From contig CALUTL010000001.1 of NCBI GenBank assembly GCA_944323655.1, forward strand, positions 124,001 to 188,000: 64,000 bases of DNA. Direction: 5' to 3'. This document shows, piece after piece, positions 7,428 to 53,421 of this stretch (the first letter of the stretch is position 1; each line of letters opens with the position of its first letter). The notes below the pieces were generated by a model, which was not told the DNA's origin, searched no databases, and saw only the letters and a program-made list of their open reading frames with translations. Origin of the DNA: Candidatus Gastranaerophilales bacterium (GTDB lineage Bacteria > Cyanobacteriota > Vampirovibrionia > Gastranaerophilales > Gastranaerophilaceae). Made by a program: the position numbers and the translations under genes.

Positions 7428-7490
7428 CCGCTTTTGCTCAATATAGCCTTTTATAGAAACAGAACCGGCATTAAAGCCGGTCTGTATCGT

Positions 7491-10373
7491 TTACCATTTT
7501 ATAAGAACAACACCTGAAGTACCTGCTTCCGGATCTGGAGTATGTCCCCAGTATGTACCTTTTCTGCAACCTCGAGTTTCAAGTTGGTTAGCATCAAGCG
7601 GACCGTATCTTTCCTCAATAGATTTGCCTTCAAAAGTACGAACCCATTCACTCGCCCAGCAGTCGTTATAAGAACCACCGCCGTTGCCGCCAGCACCTGA
7701 AGCTGCAATCCAAGCACCTAAGACAGTGTTGTCAACCGGAAGAACAAGGTTAAGGATATTTGACTTGTAATTTGTAACACTTGCCAGTTTACCATTTGTA
7801 CCCGGCTGCTCTGCGTTAAATACTCCGCCTTCATACCAGTACGGCAACTGTTCGGTAACTGTCGGGATACAACCTTTACCGCCCTTACCGCCTTTTGCGG
7901 TTAGAATATCACCGACAATAGTATCACCGCCATCTTGTCCGTTACAAATTGTACGGTCTGTTGAACCATCCGGAGGATGTGAACCAGCTGCACCGCCACG
8001 ACCTAGAGTTATCTCAATATCATCATCTTTAAAGGCTCTTATAATCTTAACTCTGTATTCACCGGCATCTCCGCCTTCTCCATATTGAAGATAGTTAGTG
8101 TTCCAAGTGTAACTATATGTATATTTACCGTTTTCTCTTATAGCATTATTAGTACCTGATGCTTTAAGACAAAATCCAACGTGATTACCTCCGCATTTTC
8201 TGGCGGTATTTTCTGAATATCCGGAACCGTCGATACTGCCTACTGCTGCTTCATTACCACCGGCATAAGGAGCATCCTGACCTTCAACCGGAACAGCCTT
8301 ACCGGCATTTTGTCTTCTTGCACCTTGACCTTTACCCGGCACTTTTGTTTTGTGAAGCTCACACCAATAGTTGCCGTTGCCACCAGTAATTTTTATCTCT
8401 GCTGACCCCTGAGAAGCGGTTCCGTTTTCTGCATAACCGCCATCCTGGTATTGCCATTCATTTTTTGTATAAAGGGTCTTGTATCCTGCTCCGGTTAAGA
8501 GTCTGTCACTTCCTCTTATGCCGGCAGTAATATTTGACTCACCTTTGTAATTCAAACCTGTTGTTACTGCTACATCATTTAATGCACAGAATTTACCTTT
8601 ACCAGCCTCTCCGCCTTTAACTACATCTGGTACATATGCACATGATATCGTTTCATTAGGATCATTTACTTGATCATAACTGAACATACATTCAAAACCG
8701 CTTGAACCCGGTACTTTCCTGTCACAAGTATAATAATCTATATACTGACGTGATTCAGTCCACGTTGATTCTGTTGATACTATACTCTTACCACTGCACG
8801 AACTTGTGTCATCATATGTATATGAATTTGACAATGAACAATTATTCTGTAAGTATTTTTTATCATTATAATTTGTTCCAGTAGCCGGATTGCGGAAATT
8901 TGTATCATAATTGTGTCTGTTACTTGAGTTTGCATCGCCACAAGTACCGTTAAATGTATTTGTACATGACTCGCCGAAAGCACTTAATCCTTCTTTTTCT
9001 GTCAACATAAACATTGGGAATTTTTCTTCTGTTCCGCCGGCTACTACATCATAAAATTCAGAAACTCCTCCGGTTTTTGTTGAATGAACTGATGTAGTGT
9101 TTGTGCCCATGCTAACCATTTGTTCACCAAATGCAGCACTTAAAGATGAATTATCACAAGTTACTCCCGGTATTTCTCCTGCCATAAACGAACCGAAAAT
9201 ACCTGTTCCTGTATATATTTGGTTGCTTCCATAGTTACATACCGTTTGAGATGTACCTGTATCACGCATTACAACACGCTCTTCAACATCTTTTCCATCT
9301 TCCAATGTCGGAGGACTGTCTGGAAGTTCCTCTCTATAAGGAGGTCTTGCGCTTACATTTTCTGCAAACCAGTTTTCTACATCAACCGTTAAATAAGCCT
9401 TGCGGGCTGAACAACTTGCATCGACAGGGATATCATAGGTCTCTGTACAGGTACTGTAACAGGTTGAATCATTGTATCCCCAATCACAGTCTCCTGTTCG
9501 TCTAGTACCATACCTACAGGTAGATTTAGTATATCCATAGATACACTCACGTTTCCCATCCTTATTTTTCCATTGATAACAATCGGACTCAGGACAATCA
9601 CTAGTACAACGCTTTTCATTCCAACTTCTACATTCCTCATCTGAACAATCACTTCCATAACATGTTTCAGTTTCCCAATCTTCACAATCATCACAAGTAG
9701 GACCATAACAGTACTCTCTACAATAATAACTATATTTCTTTTTCTTGTATGTCACAGTCTGATTAGCATAATGAGGAACACATTCTTTCTCTTGTGTTCC
9801 CGTATATTCCCATTCTCTGTATGCTAAACAGGCTCTATTTGCGCAATCCTGCCTGATGTAATAAACATCACCGCCAGCACCGCCATCGCCAAAGTCGCCG
9901 GTACCATCAGCATAAGCCCAAACTTTACCGCCGTATTTTTGAAGTTCATTTAGAGTCATACCCTTCAATTTTAAAATATCGTCAGTCCACCCGAAAGGTG
10001 AAAGGACTTCCGTTTTGGATTGGTATCTGAACAGAGTCCCGCCTTTATATCCGGAAGCACCGCCGCCGCCACCGCCGCCGGTGGCTTGAATATGTAAATA
10101 AGCAGCCCTTGCAGGTGGTGTAAATACACACTGATCTGTATCTTCATCCATTATCTTGTTTTCAAGTCCTATTCCAAGGTATTTTTCCTGATGAAGATTT
10201 CCATCCTTGTTGATATAGCATATATACGCACCGTGAGATGCTAAACGCGGTACTTTTACGTGTTTCTTGGATATTACGGTTACACCTGATGCCAGCATTA
10301 ATGATACTATTACCAGCAATAGCATCATCTCAACCATTGAAAAACCGCGATAAATTCTCGTTTTTTTATTCAT
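7491..10373 (-). CDS. Giant prepilin-like protein with Gly-rich and Cys-rich extracellular regions (960 aa)
   Basis: A class-III (type IV pilin/pseudopilin) leader ends at G10 (RGFSMVEMM); F11 is +1 and E15 the +5 glutamate, followed by a hydrophobic helix (about 14-35). A module shared with the next two genes follows: HGxxxCYxN (47-54), CxFxPP (82-87), YLHIQATGGGGGGG (92-105). Residues 177-321 hold 19 cysteines in patterns such as CYGPTCDDC and CYGSDCSDEEC, suggesting a disulfide-rich insert. The C-terminal half is Gly/Asn/Ser-rich, with GEGGDAGEY, TLGRGGAAG and AKGGKGGKG, and ends GTSGVVLIKW. Most pilins are under 250 residues. AAGGTGA precedes ATG 10373. Last gene of the operon from 12460. 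Probably a surface or pilus-tip protein; no function is known. Confidence 0.85.
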   Translation of the reverse strand: MNKKTRIYRGFSMVEMMLLLVIVSLMLASGVTVISKKHVKVPRLASHGAYICYINKDGNLHQEKYLGIGLENKIMDEDTDQCVFTPPARAAYLHIQATGGGGGGGASGYKGGTLFRYQSKTEVLSPFGWTDDILKLKGMTLNELQKYGGKVWAYADGTGDFGDGGAGGDVYYIRQDCANRACLAYREWEYTGTQEKECVPHYANQTVTYKKKKYSYYCREYCYGPTCDDCEDWETETCYGSDCSDEECRSWNEKRCTSDCPESDCYQWKNKDGKRECIYGYTKSTCRYGTRRTGDCDWGYNDSTCYSTCTETYDIPVDASCSARKAYLTVDVENWFAENVSARPPYREELPDSPPTLEDGKDVEERVVMRDTGTSQTVCNYGSNQIYTGTGIFGSFMAGEIPGVTCDNSSLSAAFGEQMVSMGTNTTSVHSTKTGGVSEFYDVVAGGTEEKFPMFMLTEKEGLSAFGESCTNTFNGTCGDANSSNRHNYDTNFRNPATGTNYNDKKYLQNNCSLSNSYTYDDTSSCSGKSIVSTESTWTESRQYIDYYTCDRKVPGSSGFECMFSYDQVNDPNETISCAYVPDVVKGGEAGKGKFCALNDVAVTTGLNYKGESNITAGIRGSDRLLTGAGYKTLYTKNEWQYQDGGYAENGTASQGSAEIKITGGNGNYWCELHKTKVPGKGQGARRQNAGKAVPVEGQDAPYAGGNEAAVGSIDGSGYSENTARKCGGNHVGFCLKASGTNNAIRENGKYTYSYTWNTNYLQYGEGGDAGEYRVKIIRAFKDDDIEITLGRGGAAGSHPPDGSTDRTICNGQDGGDTIVGDILTAKGGKGGKGCIPTVTEQLPYWYEGGVFNAEQPGTNGKLASVTNYKSNILNLVLPVDNTVLGAWIAASGAGGNGGGSYNDCWASEWVRTFEGKSIEERYGPLDANQLETRGCRKGTYWGHTPDPEAGTSGVVLIKW

Positions 10374-10508
10374 ACTCTGTTCACCTTATATATTGTTGTT
10401 CATATTACCTATTAAGTTATTCAAAGCATTTGCCTCTTTTTTAAACATCCGCTTTTTATAAATAACATTCTTTATTATGTTATTTGGCCGCAATAATAAA
10501 ATATACTA

Positions 10509-11384
10509 CTACCAAATAATTACAACGCCTCCTGGCTTTCCTGCCCTGCCGGGTTGTACGGCTGCTATTCCGTCTTCAATTCCTAATGAATCCAAATAGC
10601 TTTCCATCTGCGATACACTTGACAATGTTGTATCAAATGTAACTTCTATTGTATAAAAAGAATCATAAGAACCAGCAATATCCAGTAATGCTAAAGCATC
10701 CTGTGGTGCGATTCCATGTCCCGTAAAATCCGATAAATCTCTATATACAAGCTTATTACCTGAATAAGATGTTCTATATTTTTTTATGTCCGTAATCGGT
10801 ATTTTATTCGTAACAAAACCGCTATCATTACAAAATGCTATTGATAAATTCAAACCGTCTTGTTCACATCTTGGGGTTCCACAGTTATATTTATTGTAGG
10901 TAAATCGGCACTGAGAAACTATGTCAGCTCCGACACTTGCTGCATTCATATTACCTCGTCCTGCATCTGCCAATAAAATGACACTTCCGTCTATTTTAAT
11001 TGTAGTTTGACCATTTACATTGCCCGGCTCTACTGTGATCGGTTTGTCTAAAGAACTGTAAAATACTGACTTAAATTCTCCCGCATCACCGGCTGATCCT
11101 CCCCCTATTGCATTCAATAAAAGATATTTGGCATATCTTGGAGGTCTGAATACACAAGTATTACCTGTTACATTTCGGGGGTTATTATTTTCTACATATC
11201 GCTGCATCAAAGTTCCTGCAGCATTTTTATAACATTCATATCGGCCGTGACCATCTGATTCTTGGTATGTAACGTGCCTTTTAGAGTATGCATTTGCACA
11301 TAATGCTACAAATATCCCGACTATTAACATTACAACACAGGCTTCAAATAATGAAAATCCAGGCTTTAAATTCTTTTTTACCAT
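10509..11384 (-). CDS. Prepilin-like protein with glycine-rich body (291 aa)
   Basis: Leader KKNLKPG ends at G9; F10 is +1 and E14 the +5 glutamate (GFSLFEACVVMLIVGIF). The same module as the neighbouring paralogs follows: HGRYECYKN (46-54), CVFRPP (about 77-82), YLLLNAIGGGSAG (about 87-99). The protein ends KPGGVVIIW, matching VVLIKW and VVILW in the paralogs. Its glycine-rich part is much shorter than theirs. The ATG overlaps the stop region of the upstream gene by 7 nt, implying translational coupling. No pilus assembly gene is nearby, so the machine that exports it is presumably encoded elsewhere. Confidence 0.85.
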   Translation of the reverse strand: MVKKNLKPGFSLFEACVVMLIVGIFVALCANAYSKRHVTYQESDGHGRYECYKNAAGTLMQRYVENNNPRNVTGNTCVFRPPRYAKYLLLNAIGGGSAGDAGEFKSVFYSSLDKPITVEPGNVNGQTTIKIDGSVILLADAGRGNMNAASVGADIVSQCRFTYNKYNCGTPRCEQDGLNLSIAFCNDSGFVTNKIPITDIKKYRTSYSGNKLVYRDLSDFTGHGIAPQDALALLDIAGSYDSFYTIEVTFDTTLSSVSQMESYLDSLGIEDGIAAVQPGRAGKPGGVVIIW

Positions 11385-12460
11385 AATATTACCACCGCTC
11401 CATTTTTACCGGCTTGCGCTGGGCATGTATCTGATTCACTTCCGTCATCACACTGCGATGGATTATCACAGGTTATTTTTCTAACGTAATTACTTACATC
11501 AACATCCGTACCGGTACCTCCTGCTCTTATTGTATATGTTACAGTATAATCAGTAGTTATATTCCCATATCCGCCGGCTCCGCCGCTTCCTGCTTGTATA
11601 TCAGCTATAAGAGACTCCATTTTTTCGGTATTTTCATCCATTTCTATGCTGTCTGTAAAATCTGATAAATTCTGTTTTCGACCTTCCAAATCTTTTACTT
11701 GACAAATTGAACCTCTTCCGTCAAGCCACATCGGATATTGTCCAGAACCAGTGCCTGCGGCACCGCCTTCTGCTTCAAGGATTGGAACATCTTCTCCGTT
11801 AAATTTTACTATTGTTGTCTCGCCAGGCCGACCTAATGCTCCGCCTTTACCTGGCAACATCGTTATCTCTACATTTGTTAATTTCGGGAAAAATATTGAC
11901 TGTGTTTTTCCCGGCTTGCCGGCATTTCCGTACCTGATGGTTGCATAGCTGCCTTGTCTTTTTCCGACATAACTCGGAGGCATTGTTGTAGGCACAGGAA
12001 GCTGCCCAAAACCTTGCACATCCTGCATCCATTCAGGAAAATCATTTGCGGTTGTATAAGTGTTGTTTTCTGTCTTAGGAGTGACTGTTTTTCCACCGGC
12101 AGTATTCGAACCGCCGCCGCCACCGCCTACTGCGTGAATTAACAAATATACAGCATTCTTCGGAGGGGTAAACGTGCATCCTGCACCTCCTACTGCCGGA
12201 GTTTCACTGGCGCCTTCCTCATTTACATAATACGACATTAGCGTATTCCCGTTATAATAGCACTCAAACCGCCCGTGAAGACTGCGTTTCGTTTTTACTT
12301 CATTTTTCTTAAAATGTATCGCCGGTACACCTATTACAATAAATGACATTATAAGCATTACGACAAGCATTTCTGCTATCGAAAACCCGGCAATTTTTGC
12401 TTCACGTATTGCTATTAAACTCCCAAGCCTGATTCCTTCGGGTGAACCGCCTTGATGCAT
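11378..12460 (-). CDS. Prepilin-like protein with glycine-rich body (360 aa), first gene of the operon
   Basis: Unusually long leader: 25 residues up to G25 (AKIAGFSIAEML), F26 as +1 and E30 as +5. After the hydrophobic helix (about 27-46) come LHGRFECYYN (61-70), CTFTPP (95-100) and YLLIHAVGGGGGG (105-117). Further motifs MLPGKGGALGRPGETT and LEAEGGAAGTG match a glycine-rich domain often seen at the ends of phage tail and surface proteins. It ends KNGAVVILW. Start chosen at ATG 12460 with GAGG about 10 nt upstream and a good promoter at 12496-12524. No closer ATG would give a short leader. Coupled to the next gene by a 7-nt overlap. Confidence 0.82.
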   Translation of the reverse strand: MHQGGSPEGIRLGSLIAIREAKIAGFSIAEMLVVMLIMSFIVIGVPAIHFKKNEVKTKRSLHGRFECYYNGNTLMSYYVNEEGASETPAVGGAGCTFTPPKNAVYLLIHAVGGGGGGSNTAGGKTVTPKTENNTYTTANDFPEWMQDVQGFGQLPVPTTMPPSYVGKRQGSYATIRYGNAGKPGKTQSIFFPKLTNVEITMLPGKGGALGRPGETTIVKFNGEDVPILEAEGGAAGTGSGQYPMWLDGRGSICQVKDLEGRKQNLSDFTDSIEMDENTEKMESLIADIQAGSGGAGGYGNITTDYTVTYTIRAGGTGTDVDVSNYVRKITCDNPSQCDDGSESDTCPAQAGKNGAVVILW

Positions 12461-12542: not shown

Positions 12543-13022
12543 CTAACGTCGGATACATAACCTTTCCAGCCCTCTTACTAAACGTACTACTTTTTTTTCG
12601 CTATCGGCTGTTATTGAATCTACCAATATAGTTTTACAGCCTAACCTTTTGCCAAATAATATATCTGTCAACGGTCTGTCACCTATCATTACGGATTTTG
12701 AAGGATCTACACCCTCTTTTTCCAAAAATATCCGACCTGCCTTTGAACGAGGTTTCCCGGCATCAAACAATACAGGAAAATCCGTCACTGACTTTACTTT
12801 TTCAATATAATCAGGATTTTTATTATTTGAAATTACGGCTACATAAAAGTCTTTACGCACGTTTTTAAGCCAAGAAATAGTTTCTTCGCTGTACTTCCCT
12901 GACTTTGACGCCATCAAAGTGCTGTCCAAATCAAACAATAAAGCTTTTATTCCTTGATTTTTTAAATCTTCCAAATCTATATCATAAATACTTTTTAAAT
13001 TATAATCAGGTTTAAGAAACAT
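12543..13022 (-). CDS. YqeG-family HAD phosphatase
   Basis: 159 residues, whole-length match to the YqeG/GEP4 type of HAD-IIIA phosphatase. Seen: motif I FDLDSTL with D31 and D33 (the family usually has DNT), motif II ISNN (about 64-67), the lysine region DAGKPRSK (87-94) and motif IV GDRPLTD (114-120). The eukaryotic relative dephosphorylates phosphatidylglycerophosphate; the bacterial role is not settled. It overlaps the upstream U32 gene by 11 nt, a clear operon. The prepilin operon 82 nt downstream has its own promoter, so it is probably a separate unit. Confidence 0.88.
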   Translation of the reverse strand: MFLKPDYNLKSIYDIDLEDLKNQGIKALLFDLDSTLMASKSGKYSEETISWLKNVRKDFYVAVISNNKNPDYIEKVKSVTDFPVLFDAGKPRSKAGRIFLEKEGVDPSKSVMIGDRPLTDILFGKRLGCKTILVDSITADSEKKVVRLVRGLERLCIRR

Positions 13023-14271
13023 TTGCTTTTACTCCGATTGTCCTTACAAGCGCATATTTATAATCCTCAGGTGCCTTATCAAACAACAGATAAACATCAT
13101 CATTCGTGTTTGCAAGCCCTAAATCTATTCCGTTTTCGTCTTTTACGGCAAGAAGCTTCGCCCTGAACTGCTCGTTCGGCGTTATTACCTCAACTTCATC
13201 CCCTATAAGCATTTTGTTTTTGATTTTTACAGGATAAAAAACACCCTCATCAAGCTTCAAAGGCTCCTTATTCCCTTTAAATTCGCAAAGAAAATCCGCA
13301 CCCGCAAGCCCTTTTGAAATATCATAACTGTAACTTTCACTGTCATTATTACCCAATGCAAACCCTGTTGTATAACCTCTGTTTCCGACTTTTTGAAGTT
13401 CCGTAAAATACTTTTTCATATCCGCATAAGGATTTTTCAACACTTCATCAATTGCCTCTCTGTAAGTTTTGGCAACGGCGGAAACATAATAAAGACTTTT
13501 TGTACGGCCTTCTATCTTTAATGAATCTACACCTGCATCAATCATTTCTCTCAAATGCTCAACAAGGCAAAGGTCCTTCGGGCTTAAGATATGAGAACCT
13601 CTTTCATCCTGATTAATTTCATAATATTCATCAGGTCTGGTGCTTTCAACAAGCTTGTAACTCCATCTGCAAGGCTGTGAACAATTCCCGTGATTTGCTT
13701 TTCTCTCACCCTTTGTAAAGTAATCACTTAACAAACATCTTCCGGAAAATGACACACACTGAGAGCCGTGAACAAAGCATTCAAGCTCAATATCAGGAAC
13801 ATTTTTCCTTATTTCGGCAATATCTTTTATCGGAAGCTCTCGTGCAAGAATAACCCTTGTCGCACCTAAATCTTTCCAAAATTTTACGCTTTCATAATTT
13901 AAGGTATTTGTTTGCGTGCTTACGTGAATCGGAACGTTCGGAGCTGACTTTCTTAACAAGTTAAAAATCCCGAAATCGCTTACTATAAAAGCGTCAGGCT
14001 CAGCTTCCTTAAACTTGTTCACACACTCTTCCAAAAGTTTTATATCACTGTTAAACGCAAAAATATTTAAAGTTACGTAAGCTTTTGCACCGAGTTTATG
14101 CGCCAGAGCAACGGCTTCTTTTAAATTCTCCAGAGTAATCAAGCTGCCTTTTCTCATTGCTCTCAGGCTGAAATCAACAACCCCCAGATATACGGCATCC
14201 GCCCCGTAACGTACTGCGTATTCAAGTTTTTCCATATTGCCCGCAGGCATTAAAAGTTCAATCTGTCCCAT
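13012..14271 (-). CDS. U32-family protein (TrhP/RlhA-like, RNA hydroxylation)
   Basis: 419 residues. The N-terminal TIM-barrel starts IELLMPAGNMEKLEYAV and is followed by AVYLG. The U32 signature cysteines lie at C165, C172, C179, C197 and C201 (FVHGSQC, SGRC, NHGNCSQPCRW), expected to bind a cofactor or Fe-S cluster. The C-terminus carries a beta-barrel-like segment. Members annotated as collagenase-like peptidases are now known in several cases to be prephenate-dependent tRNA or rRNA hydroxylation factors (TrhP, RlhA); that role is more likely here. There is no Shine-Dalgarno; the promoter lies directly before the ATG (14278-14306), so the mRNA may be leaderless. Overlaps the YqeG gene by 11 nt. 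Confidence 0.88.
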   Translation of the reverse strand: MGQIELLMPAGNMEKLEYAVRYGADAVYLGVVDFSLRAMRKGSLITLENLKEAVALAHKLGAKAYVTLNIFAFNSDIKLLEECVNKFKEAEPDAFIVSDFGIFNLLRKSAPNVPIHVSTQTNTLNYESVKFWKDLGATRVILARELPIKDIAEIRKNVPDIELECFVHGSQCVSFSGRCLLSDYFTKGERKANHGNCSQPCRWSYKLVESTRPDEYYEINQDERGSHILSPKDLCLVEHLREMIDAGVDSLKIEGRTKSLYYVSAVAKTYREAIDEVLKNPYADMKKYFTELQKVGNRGYTTGFALGNNDSESYSYDISKGLAGADFLCEFKGNKEPLKLDEGVFYPVKIKNKMLIGDEVEVITPNEQFRAKLLAVKDENGIDLGLANTNDDVYLLFDKAPEDYKYALVRTIGVKANVS

Positions 14272-52713: not shown

Positions 52714-53421
52714 ATGAACAGAAATAGCACCTTCGGATTTACTATGGCAGAAGTTCTCATAACTATAGGGATTATAGGTCTTGTGGCTTCCATGACCTTG
52801 CCAACCTTAGTTCAGAAATATCAAACACACGTTGTAGAAACCAGATTAAAAAAATTCTACTCAATAATAAATCAAGCAGTATTACTATCAAAAAATGTAA
52901 ACGGAGATTTTGAAGGCTGGACATACTGGATAAAAGAAGAAAAAGATGAGGATGGAAACTATATAAACAAAGCTGATTCTACAGACCAAGCTTTCCAATT
53001 ATATTTAGCACCGTATTTAAATATTCTGTATAAAAAAGAATTTACAGACGGAAATGGACAAAAACGTTATTTATACGAATTAACAGACGGGAGTGCGTTT
53101 GCTTTTCAGGCTCATGAAAATCGCGAGATAATATTTTTTCCAAGCAATGCGGAAAAATGCCTAAAATTACCCAAAAAAGAAAGTTTTGGCTTATGCGCAT
53201 TTGCATTTCAATTTTACCCGATAGAAAATACTGACCTTTGGAAATATTTGTACAATAAAGGAGTAGAACCATATATGCACGCTTGGGACGGTAAAGATGA
53301 ATCATTATATACAGGAAGCACCTATTCTTGTGATGGAAACAACCCTAACTACTGCACAGCAATAATTGCACGCAACGGTTGGAAAGTTCCCAAAAATTAT
53401 CCGCGTAAAATCCGATGGTAA
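52714..53421 (+). CDS. Type IV prepilin-like protein
   Basis: 235 residues with a canonical class-III leader: NRNSTFG cut before F9, glutamate E13 at +5 (GFTMAEVLITIGIIGLVASM), then a long N-terminal helix (about 10-60). The globular part is aromatic and acidic, with cysteines at about 147, 157, 210 and 218, and ends ARNGWKVPKNYPRKIRW, a C-terminal pattern I associate with many prepilin-type proteins of this lineage. It differs from the glycine-rich prepilins at 7.5-12.5 kb, lacking the HGxxxCYxN module. Likely a minor pilin or pseudopilin. No assembly gene nearby. Confidence 0.88.
   Translation: MNRNSTFGFTMAEVLITIGIIGLVASMTLPTLVQKYQTHVVETRLKKFYSIINQAVLLSKNVNGDFEGWTYWIKEEKDEDGNYINKADSTDQAFQLYLAPYLNILYKKEFTDGNGQKRYLYELTDGSAFAFQAHENREIIFFPSNAEKCLKLPKKESFGLCAFAFQFYPIENTDLWKYLYNKGVEPYMHAWDGKDESLYTGSTYSCDGNNPNYCTAIIARNGWKVPKNYPRKIRW

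Follow-up and report, generated by a model that had tools for sequence, protein, structure and literature searches.

Large pilins that carry additional domains form a known class. In modular pilins, 264 architectures have been described, and the most extreme case cited is a protein of 860 residues (PMC8179133). In Streptococcus sanguinis, three minor-pilin genes with large extra parts lie in one operon, and their products PilA, PilB and PilC were proposed to form a tip complex that starts assembly, with adhesive modules on PilB (vWA) and PilC (a lectin module); adhesive or glycan-binding activity has been shown for both of these (PMC8179133; PMC9934059). The minor-pilin complexes of other filaments also sit at the tip and start assembly (PMC9934059). 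Binding heads of another kind are found in phages. As described in PMC9608196, gp24 of cyanophage Pam3 is a trimer composed of a helix, a TNF-like domain and a glycine domain. Its glycine stem is conserved, and receptor binding was proposed for its distal tip, which is hypervariable. In S16 gp38, a Salmonella phage adhesin with a glycine-lattice receptor-binding domain, a beta-helix stands where Pam3 gp24 has its TNF-like domain (PMC9608196). Here, we describe three genes, named A, B and C, in a stretch of 64,000 nucleotides (the window) from the 1.95 Mb genome of a Candidatus Gastranaerophilales bacterium (Vampirovibrionia; contig CALUTL010000001.1, positions 124,001 to 188,000). We propose, with a probability of about two in three, that their products are minor pilins of a type IVa-like pilus which present a variable, phage-fibre-like binding tip.

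The three genes are located on the minus strand and are transcribed in the order A, B, C. Gene A (11378..12460) encodes a prepilin of 360 aa, gene B (10509..11384) one of 291 aa, and gene C (7491..10373) one of 960 aa. Together, the three open reading frames (ORFs) span exactly 7491-12460, and A and B overlap by 7 bases. The common strand, the spacing and this overlap suggested that A, B and C form one transcription unit. The leaders were ...KIAG/FSIAE in A, ...LKPG/FSLFE in B and ...IYRG/FSMVE in C; read from the sequence, all three had the Gly/Ala at -1, the Glu at +5 and the stretch of about 20 hydrophobic residues that define class III leaders. Behind the helix, each protein carried the shared module HGxxxCYxN ... 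CxFxPP ... YLxxxAxGGG, in the form HGRFECYYN, CTFTPP and YLLIHAVGGG in A, HGRYECYKN, CVFRPP and YLLLNAIGGG in B, and HGAYICYIN, CVFTPP and YLHIQATGGG in C. The leader end, the helix and the module together occupied 12092..12394 in A, 11070..11366 in B and 10044..10352 in C. The C-terminal ends were VVILW (A), VVIIW (B) and VVLIKW (C). A preliminary description of this DNA, made from the letters alone, had already pointed out the leaders with their Glu +5, the shared module and the common ends, and all of them were found on reading the ORFs. Among the relatives, the +5 Glu was missing in one set member each from genomes G028 and G048 (Thr and His, respectively; L064:8984-10720 and L069:1048-2640), a feature that the literature gives for the K subunit.

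Two Cys, one Phe and two Gly were invariant across 24 A-, B- and C-type modules from several genera, which were hand-picked with a prepilin pattern (25 were extracted, and one truncated module was dropped). Profile-profile comparison gave a probability of 99.9% for A against B, over the N-terminal part, and of 99.3% for A against C, over the glycine-rich C-terminal part. These invariant columns and profile matches indicated that the shared module did not arise by chance. The Pfam family Gly_rich_2 (PF21722, cut-off 24.3 bits) matched A with 25.0 bits and C with 31.9 bits and did not match B; at E<=0.01, it was found in 9/16 A proteins, 10/17 C proteins and 0/16 B proteins. Thus A and C combine a pilin leader with a known non-pilus domain, as modular pilins do, and B does not. 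The preliminary description had called all three proteins glycine-rich, which holds for A and C; B, which is glycine-poor, does not deserve the label in the Pfam sense.

AlphaFold2 models were built for A from 7 sequences and for C from 9 sequences. In these models, the heads of A and C are each predicted to be one domain with a TNF-like part and a glycine lattice ("TG" domain), which begins immediately behind the helix and runs up to the last Trp. The structural match to this fold starts at about residue 58 in A and about residue 46 in C, so that, if the models are right, there would be no room for a separate pilin head. The body of A folded confidently (mean predicted local distance difference test score, pLDDT, 77.4; predicted template modelling score, pTM, 0.66), and the disorder that the preliminary description had considered was not the outcome. 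In C, the better-modelled parts were the two ends, and the TG scaffold is predicted at about residues 46-180 and 731-960, with long inserts between them. The preliminary description had presented the module, the glycine-rich body and the C-terminus as separate parts. This view had to be given up, since they were the start, the middle and the last strand of a single domain in the models: the shared module appears to supply the first strands and the first glycine run, and the VV(I/L)xW end the last strand. From its profile comparison with A, B probably shares the TG fold.

In the VIA second-look alignment against solved structures, residues 59-360 of A matched the Pam3 fibre (7ypx) with Z 10.4 over 148 residues at 3.5 Å, and residues 58-360 matched chain 9d93_Pa of mycobacteriophage Bxb1 with Z 10.0. 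Residues 46-960 of C, aligned with 135 chains, matched 7ypx with Z 13.1 (152 residues, 2.5 Å, 25% identity) and 9d93_Qb with Z 11.6. The Bxb1 matches are glycine-rich proteins of the phage tail tip. The third group of matches was ALK and LTK, animal receptor kinases that bind a cytokine. Their entries aligned with A at Z 7.4-8.6 and with C at Z 7.4-8.5, and these rows are weak on their own because, according to the notes of the alignment itself, Z below 8 may reflect a common arrangement. For A, the next row lay outside the fold at Z 4.2, with BclA and TNF at about 4; for C, all 15 rows shown above Z 4.2 belonged to the TG fold, and the row at Z 4.2 was a TNF-family ligand. The TG extracellular domain of ALK/LTK contains a glycine-rich bundle of polyproline-II type (PMC13243192), and glycine-lattice packing in the heads of A and C would follow from the matched folds. 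In Foldseek searches against viral models, A had 65 matches at E<=0.001, and among the best 50 of these, 22 were named glycine-rich-domain proteins and 7 tail proteins; C had 3 matches. The link to the glycine lattices of phage tips, which the preliminary description had drawn by analogy with S16 gp38, was therefore supported by structural matches, and the closest solved folds were Pam3 gp24, the Bxb1 tail tip and ALK/LTK instead of gp38. S16 gp38 was absent from the rows listed in the fold comparisons of A and C, which does not by itself speak against an S16-type fold. In terms of sequence, kinship with phage proteins was hinted at by two families only, PF21722 and PHROG 863 ('tail fiber assembly'). 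The latter matched C at residues 759-839 (E 6.1e-9) and did not match B, and each family covered part of the TG domain in glycine-rich stretches.

The length of C appeared to come from variable, Cys-rich inserts, modelled with low confidence, that interrupt the TG domain, rather than from glycine. Divergence blocks placed the Cys-rich insert 1 at about residues 181-375 (9249..9833) and insert 2 at residues 471-590 (8604..8963), both on the minus strand, with a more conserved block at about 376-470 between them. Compared with genome G002, the closest of the relatives compared, C was 96% identical in residues 1-180, 39% in 181-400, 50% in 401-590, 79% in 591-730 and 95% in 731-960, and A, B and four neighbour proteins were 85-97% identical. 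The nonsynonymous divergence (dN) was mostly 0.6-0.8 in the two variable blocks (0.31 in 331-400) and 0.00-0.04 in residues 1-180 and 731-960. Among 14 C proteins from 12 genomes of the genus, the mean pairwise identity was 0.76 for the leader and helix and 0.52-0.59 for the C-terminal scaffold, and it fell to 0.28-0.29 in the inserts; this set consisted of 17 C proteins minus three from other genera, and neither the truncated C of G003 nor that of G009 was part of it. Residues 181-590 held 27 of the 38 Cys of C. The C proteins of the genus reached up to 1203 aa. The preliminary description had regarded 960 residues as very large for a pilin; large modular pilins are known, of up to 860 residues in the most extreme case cited (PMC8179133).

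Compared with the S. sanguinis operon, the locus showed the same number of minor-pilin genes and similarly large extra parts, but the construction differed. In S. sanguinis, as described, the module is grafted on a normal pilin moiety and PilA is without Glu5 (PMC8179133; PMC9934059), whereas in our models the head itself is the TG domain, all of A, B and C have Glu5, and the host is a secretin-bearing member of the Vampirovibrionia. Pam3 gp24 resembled A and C in fold and, with its hypervariable distal tip, in the way variation is placed; however, it is a phage protein that forms a homotrimer, has a shaft of three helices and comes with a dedicated chaperone, gp25 (PMC9608196), and it has no prepilin leader. 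Membership of A, B and C in the pilin class would rest on leader and context, and that in the TG fold on predicted structure. Modular adhesive pilins were already known; what would be new here is a TG head placed directly on a pilin helix, an arrangement that we did not find in the open-licence literature searched.

Judged from family matches, the genome encodes a type IVa-like pilus system with extension and retraction ATPases, a platform protein, a secretin and a prepilin peptidase. The genes for a PilB-like ATPase, the platform protein and the secretin were side by side. A single prepilin peptidase combined an A24_N with an A24 domain, and the curated cut-off for PilT-family ATPases was exceeded by two proteins (507.9 and 415.9 vs 319.1). 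A fourth protein above the T2SSE cut-off, with 463 aa, was found at L128, and the 272-aa gene next to the secretin had no family match. PilY1 (PF05567) had no match in 40 genomes, and since the control had none either, this is no sign of its absence. The extension ATPase (L115:9346-11358) carried an MshE-type c-di-GMP-binding motif (48.4 bits vs cut-off 38), and pilus extension may thus answer to c-di-GMP. There were 24 N_methyl matches scattered over the genome, a large number of prepilins given a single platform protein and a single secretin.

The composition of this machine bears on a rather unlikely alternative, namely that the three proteins act as pseudopilins in a machine like that of type II secretion. 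Their heads would then stay in the periplasm, carried by a short pseudopilus, and their ligands would be substrates of secretion instead of targets outside the cell. GspD gave the highest score for the only secretin found (168.1 bits) and GspF for the platform protein (305.2), both below cut-off, and three adjacent minor prepilins recall GspI-J-K. However, the extension ATPase scored best against PilB and the two retraction ATPases were above their cut-off. An exposed binding site would also be a better match than the periplasm for heads of this size (roughly 300-1200 residues), for the rapid variation of the inserts and for a fold like that of phage fibres. Against the GspI-J-K and PilV-W-X families, A, B and C had leader scores only, far below cut-off. 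The scores of A against ComGC (E 5e-4) and ComGD (E 0.009) were weak as well. They could be taken to mean that the heads serve DNA uptake by a competence pilus and not adhesion, given that in other bacteria DNA is taken up by type IV pili whose tips consist of minor pilins. We consider this highly improbable, because these scores were limited to the generic leader and helix and were far below cut-off, the family searches of A, B and C returned no DNA-binding family, and DNA uptake gives no reason for the fast-varying inserts.

As minor pilins with a binding tip, A, B and C would each keep a normal prepilin leader and assembly helix, with the usual pilin head replaced by a TG domain, that is, a TNF-like beta-sandwich on which glycine-rich loops form a lattice. 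The prepilin peptidase would cut all three, and by analogy with minor-pilin complexes they would enter the filament first and be carried to its tip. There, the glycine lattice would serve as the stalk. A ligand would be bound by the distal loops, chiefly by the Cys-rich inserts of C, after which PilT would retract the filament. Prepilin cleavage, the tip location, disulfides, binding and the ligand are thus what we infer for this system.

The three pilins could pack as a mixed trimer, since Pam3 gp24 is a trimer of a helix, a TNF-like and a glycine domain. It is possible, although on the whole doubtful, that one chain each of A, B and C forms a heterotrimeric TNF-like head at the tip, in which C gives a fast-changing, Cys-rich recognition surface; such a head would be the cell's equivalent of the end of a trimeric phage fibre, mounted on a pilus that retracts, and would serve to capture microbes of other kinds, mucin or particles of food. 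At E<=1e-6, exactly three matches were found in 8/14 genomes of g1, 10/12 of g2, 4/4 of g41 and 7/8 of g124, counted in genomes with a best match at 1e-10, with about the first 16 candidates per genome scored and some weak leader-only matches included. The order medium-short-long was common to the three-in-a-row loci of g1, g2, g11 and g41. The recurring count of three fits a heterotrimer and is no proof of it. Other copy numbers also occurred, with five or more in 16/21 g6 genomes and one in 6/11 g21 genomes.

Relatives of the three genes were found in 21/59 genomes, including all 14 of the genus (our genome counted). When our own genome was searched with A, nothing besides A, B and C was found at E<=1. 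The genes A, B and C were consecutive in 10/14 genomes of the genus, our own included. In G011, a copy of C adjoined A-B on the opposite strand; in G008 and G012, C was elsewhere; and in G003 the sole sighting was a cut C at a contig end. Two C genes each, one beside A-B and one elsewhere, were present in G006 (L047, L048) and G011 (L054, L055), perhaps as alternative tips. Three such genes in a row were also observed in g2, g11, g41, g6 and g16 and at loci L079 and L080; at L079 the middle protein was short and glycine-poor, and two ordinary prepilins followed behind A, B and C in that order. The third gene of g3 (G015) ran off the contig.

The preliminary description had suggested a profile search for the module in relatives, and the module proved to be conserved. 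At E<=1e-10, the profile of the N-terminal module matched 117/288 genomes of the family, in 17/41 genera; this threshold was used because weaker matches may cover the leader and helix only, and at E<=1e-6 the matches extended to 226/288 genomes. In a sample of 244 genomes from the phylum, 93 had a match at E<=1e-6, all in the family of the window, and G048, from another family of the same order, had two such genes. Contig records with a C relative numbered at least eight, of which seven were named Candidatus Gastranaerophilales or Melainabacteria and one uncultured bacterium; the contig-record loci L073-L077 seem to repeat G010, G004, G011, G012 and G150 and add few independent genomes. Lone full-strength module matches occurred in G419 (g7) and G161 (g8), with weak or no matches in the other sampled members of these genera, which could be horizontal transfer or contamination. 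We rejected a recent phage origin of the operon, since in most of the genus the chromosomal neighbours of the genes are retained and A-B-C bear no resemblance to a mobile segment of a phage. The domain could have been exchanged with phages long ago.

The comparison among relatives also bears on the idea that A, B and C are surface proteins held by a cut or uncut pilin-like helix, outside any filament. In g6, TG proteins of about 230 aa (L103:1312-2001, L063:6310-6996) had a plain hydrophobic anchor and the same C-terminal strand without a prepilin motif, so the domain can be displayed without a pilus. We nevertheless regard this idea as quite unlikely for A, B and C. The Gly/Ala at -1, the Ser/Thr at +2 and the Glu at +5 (23/24) were kept in the modules, though these had been picked with a prepilin pattern; the genome has a prepilin peptidase gene; and in several relatives the genes stood beside two ordinary prepilins.

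Several results weigh against minor pilins with a TG tip. The N_methyl family of Pfam (hmmscan) stayed under its cut-off of 21.2 bits in A (17.5), B (12.6) and C (13.1), and A was just above it, at 21.4 bits, in a DNA-level search. For TIGR02532, A alone was listed, with 10.6 vs a cut-off of 16.3. All three proteins keep Glu +5, and none shows the lack of Glu5 that marks the K subunit or S. sanguinis PilA. The parts of the pilus machine passed Pfam cut-offs, but the PilB-like, platform and secretin proteins were below the NCBIfam equivalog cut-offs. As to the fold, the leader and linker of A (1-26 and 45-60) had low model confidence, and the model of C was poor overall (mean pLDDT 45.7, pTM 0.34, residues 159-593 mostly below 50). 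The second-look alignment re-aligned Foldseek candidates only, and the ALK/LTK matches had root-mean-square deviations of 3.6-8.2 Å, with 7lir against A at 8.2 Å. Foldseek itself found nothing for A in the PDB at E<=0.001 (best 9d93_Pa, E 1.3e-3, TM-score 0.25). Sequence searches of the PDB for relatives of A and C gave nothing below E 0.3 and no match to the Pam3, Bxb1 or ALK chains, and when A was compared by tblastn with 50,697 phage records, none was matched at E<=0.1. With regard to the inserts, dN/dS against G002 was raised to about 0.4-0.5 in the most variable blocks, vs 0-0.06 in residues 1-180 and 731-960, and did not exceed 1; this simple count, with dN/dS below 1 and synonymous sites near saturation, did not show positive selection on the inserts.

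Upstream of A, two co-directional genes of 419 aa and 159 aa were located at 12543..14271 on the minus strand, and the same two genes immediately preceded A in all of the 12 further genus members in which A-B was seen. Downstream of C, there was a convergent gene of 450 aa. Promoter and terminator scans were no richer than shuffles (27 vs 23.0 and 5 vs 5.5, respectively). A terminator-like stem of 7 pairs was present just behind C at 7463-7482 (-), and such sites were no commoner than in shuffles. Two ordinary prepilins, called by eye from leaders and gene tables, lay within a few kb of the genes in several members of the genus and about 8 kb away in our genome (L070); these two had no family score beyond the leader. 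The gene-order patterns are loose, as some ordinary membrane proteins were labelled prepilins and some prepilins were missed, such as the first gene in L060. The window also encoded a prepilin of 235 aa at 52714-53421 (+), which matched the uncharacterised family DUF6613 (PF20318) with 101.4 bits. Another prepilin, of 604 aa (L118:93-1907), contained 28 Cys, many of them in Cys-rich units before a Gly_rich_2 match of 63.5 bits, and was unlike A, B and C.

Our findings suggest that this bacterium holds its targets by means of a binding head of phage type, set on a pilus that can be retracted. Two machines that have been studied apart would be joined here, the retractable type IV pilus and the receptor-binding glycine-lattice head of phage tails, whose fold is also used by ALK. 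If this is true, the head of a pilin is not bound to the classical fold, and the gut Vampirovibrionia, which are hard to grow, gain a means of attachment that can be tested. The combination of a near-constant scaffold and fast-varying inserts would then offer a natural set of variants for finding what the tip binds.

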